This document shows, one piece after another, positions 3,767 through 39,841 of a DNA stretch of 64,000 nt (its first letter is position 1; every line of letters begins with the position of its first letter). Below the pieces are notes generated by a model. That model searched no databases. It was not told the origin of the DNA and worked only from the letters and a program-made list of their open reading frames with translations. Origin of the DNA: Halogeometricum sp. S3BR5-2 (GTDB lineage: Archaea > Halobacteriota > Halobacteria > Halobacteriales > Haloferacaceae); the NCBI RefSeq assembly GCF_031624635.1, contig NZ_JAMQOQ010000002.1, positions 1 through 64,000 of the forward strand, written 5' to 3'. Made by a program: the position numbers and the translations under genes.

Positions 3767-5146
3767 CTACAGTTCGTCCGCCCAGGGCCAGTCCTTCTCG
3801 GCGCCCCACGGCCACGTCCCGGTGGCTTTCATCCCGACGTCGAAGTCGTCGTCGACGCAGGCCTCCCGTATCTCGGCGTCGTCGACGTGGTCGACCGTCG
3901 CGTCCGCGCGCGCGAGTCGGGCGACGCCCGCGGCGCAGAGGATGGACATGTCGCGCAGGTCGCGCACGTCGAGTTTGTCCATCGTGTCGCCGTGGGTGTG
4001 GCCCCACCCGCGGTCGTTGGCGCCCGACGAGGAACGGCCCTGCGCGCCCGCGACGCCGCGTTGGACGAACGGCCAGTGGTCGCTGTGCGGCCGGAGTTGC
4101 GACTCGGTTCGAATGGGAACCTCGTACTCGTCGCTGACGGCGTCGAACGCCTCGGATATCTCCTCGAAGCCGTGGTCGTGAATCTCCAACTGCCGGGAGT
4201 AGCCCGCGCCGTCGACGTTGAGGACGCACTTCACCTCGTCTAAGTCGTGGGTGTGACTCCAGTAGTACGACCCGTACAGACCGGTCTCCTCGGCGCCGAA
4301 GACGACGAGTCGGACCTTCGTCTCCAACTCGTCGGCGACGCGCGCGAGTATCTTCCCGACTTCGACGACCATGGCGGTGCCGAACCCGTTGTCGTTCGCG
4401 GCGGTCCCGACGTCGTGGCCGTCGACGTGGGCGGTGAAAAGCACCGCCTCGTCGGTGTCGGGGCCGACCGTCGCCTCGATGTTTCGAGAGGTGCCGCGGT
4501 CCGTCTCGCAGTCGACGGTCAGGTCGGCCTCGACGGCGCCGTCGTCGCAGTAGCGCTGGAGTCGCGCCCCGGCCTCCTTGCTCAGGCCGACGGCGGGAAT
4601 CGGTCCGGGGCCGTTCAGGTCGCCGATGCTCCCCGTCGGCGGCAGCGACCCCTCGATGTGGTTGTAGAAGACGAACCCGGCGGCGCCGGATTCGGCGGCG
4701 TAGCGGTACTTCTCCGAGCGGTGGACCCACCGGCCGTAGTCGTCGGGCGTGTCGCTCGACGCCATGGCGATGTCGCCGGTGAGGTCGACGTCCTCGAAGT
4801 CCTCCGGGAGGCCGTACCCCACGTCGACGAGTTCGCCCGTCACGTCTCCCGACGGCGTCCCCGGCAACTCCACCAGTTCGTGCGACCGCGCGAACGTCGT
4901 CTCCCGGTCGCCGTGGGCGACGGTGAGGCCGGCCTCGCCGCGCCGCCAGACGGGAATCGGGAACTCGTCGAACGTCACGTCGTCGAGGCCGACGTCCTCG
5001 AACGCCTCGGCCACGAGGTCCGCGCCGATTCGCTCGCCCTCGTGTCCGGGCATCCGGTCGTTCAGGTCTTCGAGGTCGGCGATGAGGTTCCATCCGACCG
5101 TGCTTCGGTAGGCGTCGCCTACGACTGCGTCCGGTAACCGTGTCAT
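3767..5146 (-). CDS. M28 family zinc aminopeptidase with PA domain
   Basis: The 459-residue protein has a protease-associated (PA) insertion in its first half (region around AMASSDTPDD... to GFVFYNH) and a C-terminal M28 dizinc catalytic domain. Visible metal and catalytic residues are H and D in FTAHVDGHDVGTAANDNGFG, the EE pair in FGAEETGLYGSYYW, D in LNVDGAGYS and H in GHTHGDTMDKL. It should release N-terminal amino acids from peptides. No signal peptide is visible with the start at 5146, so it is probably cytoplasmic. The frame stays open upstream to 5278, but that part is AT-rich promoter. It is divergent from the oligopeptide transporter operon, which suggests a joint role in peptide use. 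Confidence 0.88.
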   Translation of the reverse strand: MTRLPDAVVGDAYRSTVGWNLIADLEDLNDRMPGHEGERIGADLVAEAFEDVGLDDVTFDEFPIPVWRRGEAGLTVAHGDRETTFARSHELVELPGTPSGDVTGELVDVGYGLPEDFEDVDLTGDIAMASSDTPDDYGRWVHRSEKYRYAAESGAAGFVFYNHIEGSLPPTGSIGDLNGPGPIPAVGLSKEAGARLQRYCDDGAVEADLTVDCETDRGTSRNIEATVGPDTDEAVLFTAHVDGHDVGTAANDNGFGTAMVVEVGKILARVADELETKVRLVVFGAEETGLYGSYYWSHTHDLDEVKCVLNVDGAGYSRQLEIHDHGFEEISEAFDAVSDEYEVPIRTESQLRPHSDHWPFVQRGVAGAQGRSSSGANDRGWGHTHGDTMDKLDVRDLRDMSILCAAGVARLARADATVDHVDDAEIREACVDDDFDVGMKATGTWPWGAEKDWPWADEL

Positions 5147-5314
5147 CGTTTGGGGTGCAACATCTATTTTCAATAATCTTCCGATACAGTTGTCGGTTCT
5201 GTCATCTGGCGTCGGAATAATCCCGACGTCGTTAAGTAAATCTACGCATTCGAGCGTGGTCTTATCGAAAAACGCCACACCGTACCGACATATTCAACCA
5301 CGGTTGGAAAGAAC

Positions 5315-5320
5315 TTTATA
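5315..5320 (+). promoter_or_regulatory. TATA box of the peptide transporter operon
   Basis: TTTATA lies about 27 bp before the ATG at 5345, with a purine-rich GGAAAGAA BRE-like stretch just upstream. This decides the start at 5345 over the in-frame codon at 5327. The 198-bp divergent region 5147-5344 is much more AT-rich than the genes beside it and also holds the aminopeptidase promoter. Confidence 0.65.
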
Positions 5321-5344
5321 CTGCCATTGATGATAGCCAATGAC

Positions 5345-7075
5345 ATGGCCGAAGATAGCGAGCGGGTGAGGCGGCGCAGCTTCCTCAAAGCGGCGACGGC
5401 GGGTGGATTGGCTGGCATGACGGCGCTCGCCGGCTGTTCGGACCAGACCGGCGGCGGGGAGAGCGAGGGCGAAGGCGGGTCCGGCGGCGGTGGCGGCGGG
5501 AGCGAAACCGAAGGCTCCGATACGGGGTCCGACTCGAGCGGGTCCGGCGAGAGCCTCCCGACGTACACGTACGTCAACAACTCCCAGAGCTACAACCCGC
5601 CGAGACACGACGCCATCAATCTCATCGCGAGCCAGTTCGGCGACCTCGGCCTCGACATGGAGGTCGACGTGCTGGAGTGGGGAACGCTGTTCAGTCGAGT
5701 GTCGCAGGAGTACGACTACAGTTTCGCCACGTGGCACACGTTCTTCGTCTCCGAACCGGTGACGGAGCTGAACAACCTGTTCAACTCCAACAACACCGAC
5801 CCGGGCCAGGGGAACTACTCGGGGTACAGCAACCCCGAACTCGACGAGATGATGGGTAACTACCTGGCCGAACCGGACACGGATACCCGTATCAACCAGG
5901 CCCACGAGATTCAGAAGACGTTGATGGACGACGTGCCGACGATGCCCATCACGCAGATGCCGCAGGCGGCCATCTTCAACAGCAACCAGGTGTCGAACTG
6001 GCAGGCCGACCTCGCGAACGGGTTCAACTCCTACTGGACGATGATCAACCTGGAGATGGTCGGCGACAACACGGAGTTGAAGGGCTACTGGCCCGAGACG
6101 CTGTCGACGATGAACGTGCTGGGGCACAACGACGAGTCCAAGCACGTCTACCAGTTCAACATGCTGTACGACTTCCTGGTCCAACTCAACGACAACGCCG
6201 AACCGGACCCGGAGGTCAGCCTCGCGACGGACTGGAACCGCGTCGACGAGACGACGATGGAGTACACCATCCGGACGGACCACTCCTGGCACGACGGCGA
6301 AGACCTGACGGCCGAGGACGTCGCGTTCACGTACAACTACATCACCGAGAACGAGGTTCCGCTGTACTCCACGCAGGCGCAGTACATCGAGAACGCGGAA
6401 GTCGTCGACGAGCAGACGGTCCGCATCAACATGTCCCAGCCGCTGGGGCCGTTCAACCTCGCGGTGGCGAACCTCGTCCCCGTCATCCCCCAGCACAAGT
6501 GGGAGGGCCGGAGCAACCCGGCGCAGGCGAACATCCAGGAACCCGTCGGCAGCGGTCCCATGATGTTCGACTACTGGGAGCAGGGCAGCGAGTTCGGCAT
6601 GGTGCGCTTCGACGAGCACTTCGCGCCCGTCAGCTTCGAGCGGCGCTTCTGGCGCATCATCCCCGAGGCGTCGACGGTGTGGGAGAACCTCATCAACGGT
6701 CAACTCAACTACGAGCCGTTCGGCCGCATCGACCGGTCGCTCGACCAGAACCAGGACAACGAGAACATCGGCACGCGGTTCCAGACGGCGCCGACGTTCT
6801 GGATGTTCACGCCGAACGAGAGACAGCAGGGTCTCGACGACGTGCAGATGCGGAAGGCGCTGGTCGAGACGCTCCCGCGGACGCCCATCGTCGAGCAGAT
6901 TCTGTTCGGCTTCCCGGAGGAGGGGTACAACATCGTCTCCTCGGCGTTCGGTCCGCTCCACACCGAGGACGTGACCACCTACGACCAGAGCCCGGAGTCC
7001 GCGCGGGCCCGCCTCGAAGAGGCCGGCTACACGTGGGACGACAACGACATGCTCCAGGCACCGAGCGGTAACTGA
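5345..7075 (+). CDS. ABC transporter substrate-binding lipoprotein, oligopeptide type
   Basis: The 576-residue protein is a family 5 solute-binding protein (DppA/OppA type). It begins with a Tat signal (RRRSFLK, residues 9-15) and a lipobox ending LAGC with Cys31, then a Gly/Ser/Glu-rich tether, so it is exported folded and anchored as a lipoprotein. The family signature region is visible around ATDWNRVDETTMEYTIRTDHSWHDGEDLTAEDVAFTYN-type sequence near residues 290-335. An unusual point is that a second, partly similar lobe appears before it (residues about 75-220 read like the C-terminal half of such proteins), so the order of lobes may be atypical or the protein circularly permuted. It is first in a five-gene operon. 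Confidence 0.9.
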   Translation: MAEDSERVRRRSFLKAATAGGLAGMTALAGCSDQTGGGESEGEGGSGGGGGGSETEGSDTGSDSSGSGESLPTYTYVNNSQSYNPPRHDAINLIASQFGDLGLDMEVDVLEWGTLFSRVSQEYDYSFATWHTFFVSEPVTELNNLFNSNNTDPGQGNYSGYSNPELDEMMGNYLAEPDTDTRINQAHEIQKTLMDDVPTMPITQMPQAAIFNSNQVSNWQADLANGFNSYWTMINLEMVGDNTELKGYWPETLSTMNVLGHNDESKHVYQFNMLYDFLVQLNDNAEPDPEVSLATDWNRVDETTMEYTIRTDHSWHDGEDLTAEDVAFTYNYITENEVPLYSTQAQYIENAEVVDEQTVRINMSQPLGPFNLAVANLVPVIPQHKWEGRSNPAQANIQEPVGSGPMMFDYWEQGSEFGMVRFDEHFAPVSFERRFWRIIPEASTVWENLINGQLNYEPFGRIDRSLDQNQDNENIGTRFQTAPTFWMFTPNERQQGLDDVQMRKALVETLPRTPIVEQILFGFPEEGYNIVSSAFGPLHTEDVTTYDQSPESARARLEEAGYTWDDNDMLQAPSGN

Positions 7076-15369: not shown

Positions 15370-15390
15370 GACAGCCACTAAGGGACTGTC
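15370..15390 (+). repeat. 21-bp palindromic element, copy C
   Basis: Arms GACAG and CTGTC flank a core CCACTAAGGGA. It matches the two copies upstream of rdfA (37157, 37202): all share GACA at the left end, CTAAGG in the core and TGTC at the right end. The A-to-G change in the left arm is matched by T-to-C in the right arm, so the dyad is preserved. It lies 21 bp past the stop of the GH15 gene. Confidence 0.6.
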
Positions 15391-35956: not shown

Positions 35957-35982
35957 ATCGTCTTCGAGAATGGTCGTCCCTC

Positions 35983-35989
35983 GATTAAA
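35983..35989 (-). promoter_or_regulatory. TATA-like element of coxA
   Basis: On the minus strand TTTAATC is centred 30 bp before the leader ORF ATG at 35956 and about 71 bp before the coxA GTG. Confidence 0.55.
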
Positions 35990-36085
35990 TCTACTCCCCG
36001 ACCGGCCGAAAGATTCAACCTCCGGACCCCACAGACACGTCTCCGAGTCGGACAGTCAGTCGCCGCGTCCGGTGGGCCCACCAGA

Positions 36086-36093
36086 GTTTAGTT
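36086..36093 (+). promoter_or_regulatory. TATA-like element of coxB
   Basis: GTTTAGTT lies about 27 bp before the coxB ATG at 36117. The coxA and coxB promoters are divergent within about 160 bp. Confidence 0.5.
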
Positions 36094-36116
36094 CATATCT
36101 CTCGGAGTTGTACTCA

Positions 36117-37088
36117 ATGGACCGGACGCGCGCGCGCCTCGGCGGGTTCCTCGCTCTCGTCGTCGCCTTTCTCGCCCTCGCGACGACGCCCGCGGCGGCC
36201 CAATCCGTCAACAAGGCGCTCATCAACAACCTCAACCGCAAACTGCTGTACGTCGCCCTGCCGCTGATGATGTCCGTCGAGTTCATCATCTTTTACACCA
36301 TCTATCGCTACCGGAACAACGACGACCCGGCGCCGACCGAGGAGAACCGCCGACTCGAAATCACCTGGACCGTCGTCACCGCCATCATCCTCGCGTTCGT
36401 CGGCATCGCCTCGATGGTGGTGCTGGCGAACCCGTACATCTCTCCCGTCGTCGCCGCAGACAACGGCCCGCAGGAGGGCGGGACGAACCAGTACCTCCAG
36501 GGGGCGGTCCAACCCGACGACCCGAACGCCGTCGAAATCGAGGCGCTCGCCTACCAGTGGGGCTGGGAGTTCCGGTACGCGGGCGAGGAGAACGTGACGA
36601 CGAAGAAGAAACTGGTCATCCCGAAGGATAGGGACGTCTACATCCACGTCAGTTCCAAGGACGTGATACACGCCTTCTACTCGCCGAAACTCGGGCTGAA
36701 GCAGGACGCCATGCCCGGCGCGTACGCCACCATCCGGACGAAAGCGACCGAAGAGGGCGTCTACCCGTTCTACTGCGCGGAGTTCTGCGGCTCCGGCCAC
36801 GCCCGGATGGGCGGCGACGTGGTCGTCGTCTCTAACGACGAGTACCGGTCATGGGTGCGAGAACAGCGGAACCGCAACGCCACCGCGTCGGCGGTGGCCG
36901 ACGCGAAGGACGGAGCGGGGTCGGGCGACGATACGAATCTACTCGGAAACGCCACCACAGAGACGGGTGACGACGCGAATCTGCTCGACAACGCCACGAA
37001 CGGGTCTGAAGACGACACTGCGACGTCGGGTCCGAATCCGAGACTGCGCGCCGGCGACGCCACCGACCCGACGGTCCGGAGCGCGTAG
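36117..37088 (+). CDS. coxB: Heme-copper oxidase subunit II (CuA)
   Basis: The 323-residue protein has a signal-like first helix (about 8-28, ending AAAQ), two membrane helices (about 44-63 and 86-105) and a cupredoxin domain. CuA ligands are all visible: H185, C220, E222, C224, H228 and M231 in FYCAEFCGSGHARM, and the aromatic patch YQWGWEF for electron entry. After residue 245 there is a low-complexity tail in which DDANLLDNAT/DDTNLLGNAT-like units repeat about twice with N-glycosylation sequons, an unusual extension. ATG 36117 is set by the TATA element. Confidence 0.94.
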   Translation: MDRTRARLGGFLALVVAFLALATTPAAAQSVNKALINNLNRKLLYVALPLMMSVEFIIFYTIYRYRNNDDPAPTEENRRLEITWTVVTAIILAFVGIASMVVLANPYISPVVAADNGPQEGGTNQYLQGAVQPDDPNAVEIEALAYQWGWEFRYAGEENVTTKKKLVIPKDRDVYIHVSSKDVIHAFYSPKLGLKQDAMPGAYATIRTKATEEGVYPFYCAEFCGSGHARMGGDVVVVSNDEYRSWVREQRNRNATASAVADAKDGAGSGDDTNLLGNATTETGDDANLLDNATNGSEDDTATSGPNPRLRAGDATDPTVRSA

Positions 37089-37156
37089 CCGCGACCGCGG
37101 GCTCTCACCTCTCTCCTTCCTCTTCGACCGCGACCGGAGAACGGCGGTCCGAAGCT

Positions 37157-37177
37157 GACAACCACTAAGGGGTTGTC
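37157..37177 (+). repeat. 21-bp palindromic element, copy A
   Basis: Perfect 7-bp arms GACAACC and GGTTGTC flank ACTAAGG. It lies between coxB and rdfA, 113 bp before the rdfA ATG. Its core reads on the plus strand, like copy C at 15370. Confidence 0.65.
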
Positions 37178-37201
37178 TCTCTATCACTCTCCTCGGCGAC
37201 C

Positions 37202-37222
37202 GACAACGCCTTAGCGGTTGTC
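37202..37222 (-). repeat. 21-bp palindromic element, copy B
   Basis: Read on the minus strand it starts GACAACC, has GCTAAGG in the core and ends CGTTGTC, differing from copy A at only two positions (A to G and G to C). It is inverted relative to copy A, centre-to-centre distance 45 bp, and ends about 67 bp before the rdfA start and 30 bp before the candidate TATA element (CTTTTAC, 37251-37257). Confidence 0.65.
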
Positions 37223-37289
37223 GGAGGCGAGACGGGTCCCTGGACGGAGTCTTTTACCGCGACGGAGTCCAACGGGCCTCCACGAACCG

Positions 37290-38057
37290 ATGTGTAAAGT
37301 AGACGTCGCGGCCGACCGATTCGACCTGAACGCGCCGACGGCGCGGTACGACTCCCTCGACGCCTACCTCCTCGCGCGGTGGACGGGGGCCGACGGCGCG
37401 GAGAGCGAGGGGTACAAGTCGCTGACGGACTGGTTCAACCGCCGCCTGCTGAAGCGCGTCTACGAACTGGAGGGCCGCGACGCGACGAGCGTGCGCGCCG
37501 AGAGCGAGTACGAGGCGCTCACCGGCGAGGACGACGTGCGCCGGGACGAGGTGGCCGCCGACCTGCGCGCCGACGGCATCGACGCCGAGGAACTCCGGCG
37601 CGCGATGGTGTCGTGGAGCACGATGCGTAGACACCTCAACGGCTGTCTCGACGGCGAGAAACCCGAGCGGACGGCGACGACCGACTGGGAGCGAGAGAGC
37701 GTCCGCGTCGCCGCCGACCGCGTCCGCGAGAAGGTGCGCTCGGCGCTCACGTCGTTGGTCGGCAAGGGTCGACTCGCCGACGGCGAGGGCGTCGGCGTCG
37801 ACGTGCAGGTGAAACTCTCCTGTCCGGAGTGTCCCGCGCGCGTCCCCCTCGAAGACGCCCTCGACCGGGGGTACGTCTGCCGCGAGCATGCGGCCGGCGT
37901 CGACGACGCCGTCGCGGACGTCGAGGTGCCCGCCGGTGGGAACTCGGAGTCGTCGCGCGGCCTCGTTCCGTTCGGCGCGGCGTCGTTCCTCGGTGCGTCG
38001 CTCGCCGAGGAGGCCGCCGTCGCCCTCCAGGCGCTCCTCGCTCTCGCCGCCGTATGA
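37290..38057 (+). CDS. rdfA: Rod-determining factor RdfA-like protein
   Basis: The 255-residue protein starts MCKVDVAADRFDL and continues with a SLTDWFNRRLLKRVYE segment, both typical of the RdfA family, first linked to rod-shape determination in Haloferax volcanii. A CPEC...CREH set near residues 175-200 could bind zinc, and the C-terminus is hydrophobic (about 225-255). The stop overlaps the ATG of the SMC-related gene (ATGA), so the two are translated together. The paired palindromes upstream suggest specific control. Which of several RdfA paralogues this is cannot be told from sequence alone. Confidence 0.85.
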   Translation: MCKVDVAADRFDLNAPTARYDSLDAYLLARWTGADGAESEGYKSLTDWFNRRLLKRVYELEGRDATSVRAESEYEALTGEDDVRRDEVAADLRADGIDAEELRRAMVSWSTMRRHLNGCLDGEKPERTATTDWERESVRVAADRVREKVRSALTSLVGKGRLADGEGVGVDVQVKLSCPECPARVPLEDALDRGYVCREHAAGVDDAVADVEVPAGGNSESSRGLVPFGAASFLGASLAEEAAVALQALLALAAV

Positions 38058-39841
38058 GTTGGCGACTCGCCGTCGAGAACGTCGCCGGCATCCGCCGCGG
38101 GGAGGCGACGCTCGAACCCGGCCTCAACGCCGTCCGCGCGAGCAACTGGCAGGGGAAATCAAGTTTCCTTAGCGCCATCGGGACGGTGCTCGGGGCCGAG
38201 TCGACGCTCACGGAGGGGGAGTCGGAGGGTTGCGTCTCCCTGCGAACCGACGAGGGTGAGGAGTACGAAGTCCGACTCCGCCGCCGAGGCGAGACGGTCG
38301 TCGCCGAGGGGTCGCCGTACCTGACCGACGACGCCGACCGCGTCTGTCTCGACCTGTTCGCCCTCCTCGACGAGGGCAACGAGGTCCGGCGCGCCGTGCG
38401 GGAGGGCGCTGACCTCGGACCGATTCTCACCCGCCCGCTGGACTTCGAGGACATCGACGAGCGAATCGACGAGCACCGGCGCGAACGCGACGCCGTCGAC
38501 GACGACCTGTCCGCCGTCGACGCCGCGGCCGACCGCGTCCCGGTGCTCCGAACCCGCGCGGACGAACTCGAATCCGACCTCGCCGACCTCAGAGAGGCGC
38601 GCGAGGGCGTCGCCGCCGACGGCGACGAGGGCCTCCGCGAGGACCTCTCGACGGCCGAGGCCGAACGCGGCCGAGTCCGCGACCGGCGGGAGCGTCTGTC
38701 GGACACGGTCGACCGCGTCGAGGAGCGACTCGCGGAGCGTCGAGAGGAACTCGCGTCGCTCCCGGCGGTCGACGAGGGGGACGACGAGACACCCGAGGAG
38801 GAACTCTCGGCGGTCCGCGAGCGACACCGTCGCCGCGAACGCGACGCCGAACTCCTCCGCTCGGTGTACGAGGCGAACCGGCGCGTCGTCGAGGAGGACC
38901 GCCTCGACCTGCTGACGGACGTGACGCGCGGCGTCGAGGCCGACTCGCTCGACTGTTGGGTCTGCGGGCGGGAGACGACCGCCGAGAGCGTCGACGAGCG
39001 GTTGGCGGCGCTGGCCGACCGCATCCGGTCGCTCGAATCGGAGTCGGAGTCGCTGGCCGAAAGAGCCGACGAACTGGAGGCCGCGCGGGAGGAACGCGCC
39101 CGCGTCCGCCGCCGCCGGTCGGAACTCCGAGCGGAGGTCAGAGACCTCGAAGAGCGCCTCGCCGACGCAGAGCGCCGGTTGGCGGAGACGGACTCGGAGG
39201 CAGAGCGACTCGACGAGCGAATCGAGCGCCTCCGCTCGTCGCTGTCGGCGTCGACGGAGCGCGCGACGGACGTCGAGAGCGACCTGAAGTACACGGAGGC
39301 GCGCCTCGAAGACGCCCGCGAGGAACTCGCCGAGGCGGAGGCGGCCGCCGACCGGCGCGAGGAACTCCGAGAACAGCGCGAGCGGTTGACCGCCGAACTC
39401 GCGGACCTCCGACGCCGGAAGGCGGCGGTGAGGCGGCGGACGCGCGAGGCGTTCGACCGGACCATCGAGGAGGTGGCGGGGCTGTTCGAGACGAGTTTCG
39501 AGACGGCGCGCCTCACGAGCGACTTCGAACTCGTGGTCGCCCGCGACGGCCGCGAGGTGCCCACCTCGGCGCTGAGCGAGGGCGAGGTGGAACTGCTCGG
39601 CATCGCGGCGGCGGTGGCCGGCCACCGCGCCTACGACGTGGGAGAACGCGTCCCCGTCGTGACGCTCGACCGACTGGGCGGCATCGCCGACGACAACCTC
39701 GGCCGCCTGACGGAGTACCTCCTCGACCGCTCGGAGTACCTCGTCACCACCGCTTACCCCGAGCACTCCTCGGTGACGGGACACGAAGTCGACCCGGCGG
39801 AGTGGCGCGTCGTCTCCGACCGACCGGAGACGTCGCACTGA
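38054..39841 (+). CDS. Archaea-specific SMC-related ATPase
   Basis: The 595-residue protein has the head-coil-head plan of SMC/Rad50: Walker A NWQGKSS (residues 31-37), about 150-500 of heptad-rich, Arg/Glu-heavy coiled coil, a CWVC pair near residue 300 that resembles a Rad50 zinc hook, ABC signature LSEGE near 506 and Walker B-like VVTLDRLGG near 533. It is much shorter than Rad50 or SMC. Residue N in place of the usual G before Walker A (ASNWQGKSS) is a family trait. It is coupled to rdfA by a 4-base overlap, a combination seen repeatedly in haloarchaea to my recollection. Confidence 0.88.
   Translation: MSWRLAVENVAGIRRGEATLEPGLNAVRASNWQGKSSFLSAIGTVLGAESTLTEGESEGCVSLRTDEGEEYEVRLRRRGETVVAEGSPYLTDDADRVCLDLFALLDEGNEVRRAVREGADLGPILTRPLDFEDIDERIDEHRRERDAVDDDLSAVDAAADRVPVLRTRADELESDLADLREAREGVAADGDEGLREDLSTAEAERGRVRDRRERLSDTVDRVEERLAERREELASLPAVDEGDDETPEEELSAVRERHRRRERDAELLRSVYEANRRVVEEDRLDLLTDVTRGVEADSLDCWVCGRETTAESVDERLAALADRIRSLESESESLAERADELEAAREERARVRRRRSELRAEVRDLEERLADAERRLAETDSEAERLDERIERLRSSLSASTERATDVESDLKYTEARLEDAREELAEAEAAADRREELREQRERLTAELADLRRRKAAVRRRTREAFDRTIEEVAGLFETSFETARLTSDFELVVARDGREVPTSALSEGEVELLGIAAAVAGHRAYDVGERVPVVTLDRLGGIADDNLGRLTEYLLDRSEYLVTTAYPEHSSVTGHEVDPAEWRVVSDRPETSH

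Follow-up and report, generated by a model that had tools for sequence, protein, structure and literature searches.

The paired palindromes in front of the rdfA-ASRP operon of Halogeometricum sp. S3BR5-2 are, at a rough probability of 0.78, the transcriptional operator of that operon, to which a dimeric regulator would bind. This reading is based on a comparison of a 64,000-nucleotide stretch of contig NZ_JAMQOQ010000002.1 (hereafter, the window; Table 1) with 391 genomes of the class, 90 of which carry a close RdfA. Judged from sequence comparison, the recurring palindromes very probably represent a dedicated regulatory switch, and not a chance repeat or the end of a transcript. In the proposed mechanism, a dimeric DNA-binding protein would recognize a 21-bp dyad through two half-sites around CTWAG, and its binding just upstream of the rdfA-ASRP promoter, usually at two sites 45–71 bp apart, would set the expression of the operon.

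Table 1. Positions of the palindrome copies, the presumed promoter and the surrounding genes in the window
Feature	Position	Strand	Description
Palindrome C	15370..15390	.	Third copy; GACAGCCACTAAGGGACTGTC; 8/10 pairs; 22 kb from A and B
coxB	35970..37088	+	Upstream neighbour; stop 68 bp before palindrome A
Palindrome A	37157..37177	+	Putative distal operator site; GACAACCACTAAGGGGTTGTC; half-sites GACAACCACT-A-AGGGGTTGTC; 9/10 pairs
Palindrome B	37202..37222	-	Putative proximal operator site; minus strand reads GACAACCGCTAAGGCGTTGTC; 8/10 pairs
TATA-like element TTTTA	37252..37256	+	Presumed rdfA promoter, inferred from sequence; 34 bp before ATG
rdfA	37290..38057	+	RdfA family PF21811, CKVD subfamily, 255 aa; candidate palindrome binder
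ASRP gene	38054..39841	+	Archaea-specific SMC-related ATPase; NF045487, 414 bits (cut-off 300)

Palindromes and presumed promoter of the rdfA-ASRP operon

The original prediction, made from the window alone, had described two near-identical 21-bp palindromes in opposite orientation, 45 bp apart from centre to centre and outside any gene. This description holds: copy B, taken on the minus strand, differs from copy A by two mismatches, and both copies are intergenic, between the coxB stop codon (37088) and the rdfA ATG (37290). By chance, no match of this kind would be expected in the window, and none was found in shuffled versions of it. The inventory was incomplete, since a third copy, C, had been missed; it lies directly beyond the stop codon of a gene for a GH15 glucosidase, at a distance of 168 bp upstream of the start codon (ATG) of a minus-strand gene that encodes a small membrane protein. 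In a search of the whole genome with two mismatches allowed, A, B and C were the only ones to match the pattern exactly. A search of positions 36800–37500 against Rfam gave no meaningful match. Two tandem 42-bp repeats with 74% identity were also observed towards the 3΄ end of the coxB coding sequence (36922–37005).

The unit consists of two 10-bp half-sites arranged as a dyad around a single central A/T. Its core, CTWAG, reads the same on both strands except at that central nucleotide, and the strand on which CTAAG is read varies, both copies being swapped in a congener (G002) relative to the window; the core had therefore been wrongly called asymmetrical (as CTAAGG), and the argument against a plain terminator that had been built on this asymmetry had a false premise. 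CTWAG is the most conserved part of the sites, which had been selected by that core. It is constant across RdfA clades, whereas the flanks differ by clade: window-type (GACA-class) sites read GACAAC-N2-CTWAG-N2-GTTGTC, and in those of a second class CTWAG is preceded by NNNACAC or TTAACA and followed by the corresponding mirror image. Paired sites 45–71 bp apart are common across rdfA loci, and evidence for helical phasing of the spacing was not convincing (resultant 0.29–0.38 for periods of 10–11 bp).

Copy B ends 29 bp upstream of the TATA-like element. Similar distances were found in G002 (~30 bp) and in Haloferax (31 bp), and the distance is ~50 bp in Haloarcula. Such a position upstream of TATA, from ~30 bp in the window and Haloferax to ~50 bp in Haloarcula, suggests activation, or repression via the paired sites, and not simple blocking of TATA. 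The start of the ASRP gene overlaps the end of rdfA, and the two belong to the same operon. The RdfA of the window passes the PF21811 profile (132.7 bits, cut-off 27), although it is far from classical RdfA (~133 versus ~250 bits to this profile). A second conserved element, GTACAC...CGTCAA-ATTTATTA / GTCAAAAACTATTACTGA, was seen downstream of the palindrome and ahead of the start codon in the promoters of six loci (L097, L113, L122, L125, L130 and L132) and of Haloarcula loci.

Conservation of the dyad across haloarchaea

The check proposed in the original prediction, namely whether the motif recurs upstream of rdfA in other haloarchaea, was carried out, and the motif was found there in several haloarchaeal families, as the operator idea requires; carriers include Haladaptatus halobius, Halorussus salinisoli, Halostella pelagica and several Haloarcula species. 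We tested the enrichment of CTNAG-centred 21-bp dyads in the 90 loci with a close RdfA. With at least 7 of 10 pairs, 37 dyads were present in the 300 bp before rdfA, compared with an average of 2.16 in Markov shuffles (n = 50; at most 5 dyads in any one shuffle). With at least 8 of 10 pairs, 27 dyads were found in these upstream regions (25.2 kb in total) and 7 in the 364 kb that make up the rest of the same loci, which corresponds to a density ~56 times higher before rdfA; four of these 7 are Haloferax sites that precede the first gene of the rdfA operon. At 9 or more of 10 pairs, 12 dyads remained before rdfA and 0 elsewhere. The dyad symmetry thus exceeds chance expectation, as judged both from the window shuffles and from the enrichment upstream of rdfA.

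The presence of the motif follows the RdfA tree: as a label on the tree it requires 7 changes, compared with 29.6 when labels are shuffled. It was found in all members (6/6) of the clade that comprises the RdfA of the window and those of Haloferax and in 30/32 members of the short-RdfA clade, where degenerate versions are visible by eye in the two exceptions (L115 and L119). The motif is absent, with few exceptions, from the MGCKVD clade and from a clade with a divergently oriented ASRP gene, and about half of the CKVD rdfA loci are without a recognizable CTWAG dyad. At 28 loci of RdfA paralogs belonging to other subfamilies, including the classical one, no motif was found at the operator position; one dyad-like match was seen among them, at –33 in L271. 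Overall, the motif is conserved before the same gene in diverged lineages, and its position near the promoter is constrained.

Among the closest relatives (G001–G004), RdfA homologs are only distant. G002 retains coxB, both palindromes (56 bp apart) and the TATA region, and rdfA and most of the ASRP gene are deleted, the remnants being a few residues around ASRP position 100 and residues 482–595; by sequence, the sites can thus outlast the operon. This deletion is recent (L061, about 4868–5370), with the ASRP C-terminal remnant following coxB. In G004, coxB is followed by neither the operon nor the palindrome. The motif matches of four genomes (G001, G003, G014 and G082) fall within the coding sequence of a TrmB-family protein and were rejected as chance. 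Four Haloferax genomes and H. alexandrinus pBNX82-2 contain a single palindrome before the TATA of the operon, which is arranged there as V-type-ATPase-D-like gene, rdfA and ASRP gene, and the site adjoins a divergently transcribed ABC transporter gene in all but one of these genomes (G109). Since this single site precedes the first gene of the operon, the position of the site is at the operon start, wherever that lies.

Sites of this kind are rare elsewhere. In the 391 genomes, TTAACRNNCTWAGNNYGTTAA was found at 12 sites and TACACNCTWAGNGTGTA at 10, with 0 matches in each case for the reversed-pattern control, and all of these sites are on contigs that carry this rdfA. The other copies are promoter-proximal: extra sites precede the start codons of other genes, mostly 34–43 kb from rdfA, namely before the 5΄-deoxyadenosine deaminase gene in Haloterrigena/Natrinema-like genomes and Halostella, before a VVSDAF-RHHzn operon in Haloarcula and before the threonine synthase gene in one genome. 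In annotated records, the rdfA locus and the extra-site locus are the two ends of a conserved island of purine and selenium-dependent molybdenum hydroxylase genes on megaplasmids such as pHTUR01 and pNG700, and the fixed distance is due to the synteny of the two loci. Most motif-bearing operons are tied to this island. Full-length YqeB, encoded by an island gene, is present in 30 of the 391 genomes, all of which have a short-clade RdfA or the related G197 locus; the window genome is without YqeB. On pNG700 (L280, 230000–279900) and pHTUR01 (L279, 170000–219900), a short-clade rdfA-ASRP operon was observed at one end of a 35–43 kb island.

Candidate binders and alternative roles of the sites

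The operon's own RdfA may bind the dyad, which would amount to autoregulation. We consider RdfA the best candidate, at somewhat less than even odds, because it is the only likely regulator that was found with both operator classes and because the operator flank changes with the RdfA clade. RdfA is predicted to be helical, with a C-terminal CxxC...CxxH zinc site. In the AF2 model, helices span residues 82–94, 99–105 and 109–119, and S108, T111, R113, H115 and L116 are invariant; the helix pair 99–105 and 109–119 around these residues reads like a helix-turn-helix. No recognized DNA-binding fold was found in RdfA, and the helix-turn-helix reading had no Pfam or PDB match; a Foldseek comparison of the fold with the PDB gave no match at E ≤ 0.001 and none with Z ≥ 5. 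Positions 110 and 114, in the putative recognition helix, track the operator class, but columns outside the helix do so equally well, so that the two positions are not diagnostic of specificity.

Alternatively, the binder could be RHHzn, an RHH-like zinc-ribbon protein and the main competitor of RdfA for this role, or another shared regulator, with rdfA-ASRP only its target. RHHzn was present in all 26 genomes tested from the short-RdfA motif group, which has the second operator class, and absent from all 34 motif-negative rdfA genomes tested; its gene lies downstream of the ASRP gene or adjoins site-bearing promoters. The N-terminus reads like a ribbon-helix-helix (AF2 helices 11–19 and 25–35, at low confidence), a fold that typically binds palindromes. 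However, none of the 10 tested genomes of the GACA class has the protein, among them the window's and those of Haloferax, in which the same 21-bp CTWAG dyad occurs, and its ribbon-helix-helix reading had no Pfam, NCBIfam or PDB match. We therefore regard a binder of this kind as possible but rather unlikely. Two uncharacterized conserved families accompany the short-clade rdfA-ASRP operon (L182, 7803–8648; L179, 6190–7113): one has an RHH-like N-terminus and a zinc ribbon, the other is HTH-like, and neither had a Pfam or NCBIfam match above cut-off.

The palindromes might instead resemble parS in function, as sites at which the SMC-related ATPase is loaded or anchored, with RdfA serving as its adaptor, to organize a chromosome or plasmid domain. 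In parABS systems and at SMC loading sites, short palindromes lie near the gene of a DNA-binding protein and are linked to a chromosome-organizing ATPase. The window sites resemble these in being short palindromes beside the genes of a candidate DNA-binding protein and of an SMC-type ATPase; they differ from parS in being few, promoter-proximal and operon-specific, with no ParB-like neighbour seen. That the operons with these sites code for an ATPase of the SMC superfamily, that extra sites occur at the other end of the island in Haloarcula, Haloterrigena, Natrinema-like genomes and Halostella, and that one pHTUR01 site is close to an orc1/cdc6 gene would all be in keeping with such a role. 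However, the constant distance is accounted for by gene synteny, every site is promoter-proximal, there are few sites per genome, Haloferax has a single site, and copy C of the window is separated from A and B by no such island. These observations make a parS-like role improbable. Less probable still is the specific version in which the sites on Haloarcula, Haloterrigena and Halostella plasmids bracket the 34–43 kb island, which the ATPase would fold or insulate as a single domain; if this were true, RdfA-ASRP would be an archaeal site-specific chromosome-looping system. The orc1/cdc6 gene of Haloterrigena turkmenica pHTUR01 (L164, 3357–4589; NC_013744, 171356–172588) lies 2.3 kb from the extra palindrome, and this is a single case, no general link between the sites and orc1/cdc6 having been seen.

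It is very doubtful that the palindromes are recombination sites, for example of att type, at the boundaries of a mobile island. The conserved island, which accompanies the short-clade RdfA on megaplasmids, does have sites at its two ends, but they precede start codons, are often paired and have flanks that differ between lineages. No island goes with the sites of the window and of Haloferax, and the annotated examples show no recombinase that regularly adjoins the sites. Least credible is a role as hairpins that end or process the transcripts of upstream genes, including coxB, for whose transcript the original prediction had suggested terminal hairpins. RNA folding does give a hairpin for every single copy (–10 to –18 kcal/mol, z –2.4 to –4.4) and a strong fold for the A/B pair (–36.7 kcal/mol, z –4.0), but a terminator search found 0 terminators and no T-run follows the sites, the motif goes with the downstream gene and not with coxB while the upstream gene changes between genomes, the Haloferax site lies between divergently transcribed genes, and the would-be loop, CTWAG, is the best conserved part, so that an intrinsic terminator was rejected.

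Relation to known systems and to cell shape

In Haloferax volcanii, RdfA-Sph3 (HVO_2174-HVO_2175) is rod-determining (PMC10869688). The window operon shares with it the two-gene arrangement of an RdfA family protein and an SMC-like ATPase, but its RdfA, unlike that of H. volcanii RdfA-Sph3, belongs to the divergent CKVD subfamily. The second gene of the operon is a clear member of the ASRP family (NF045487); the paper on this family covers the proteins only, and upstream, promoter and palindrom are absent from its text (PMC9389158). In H. volcanii, rdfA and sph3 transcripts increase when the regulator CsmR is deleted; the binding site of CsmR is TATCA-N4-TGATA (PMC13286277). This site is likewise a promoter-proximal palindrome of a regulator that affects rdfA, but it is unrelated in sequence to GACAAC-N2-CTWAG-N2-GTTGTC and has another length and core. 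Neither copy A nor copy B matches it, and membership in the CsmR regulon was rejected. The window palindrome is not described in PMC10869688, PMC9389158 or PMC13286277, and no other report of it was found in a literature search that covered few subscription journals.

The suggestion that the palindromes might be the operator of a cell-shape regulator is thus well supported by the comparative evidence as far as the operator is concerned, but its link to cell shape is unsupported for this RdfA subfamily, because the subfamily is distant, the 28 loci of other subfamilies are without the motif and most of the operons are tied to the island. Few genes have been connected with archaeal cell shape, and those of RdfA and its SMC-like partner are among them. 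A clade-specific, conserved 21-bp operator would provide a concrete DNA target with which to ask whether RdfA acts as a regulator that binds DNA or as an adaptor for the SMC-related ATPase. Moreover, a large RdfA subfamily travels with the purine/selenium-molybdenum island, an argument against linking all RdfA-SMC pairs to cell shape.
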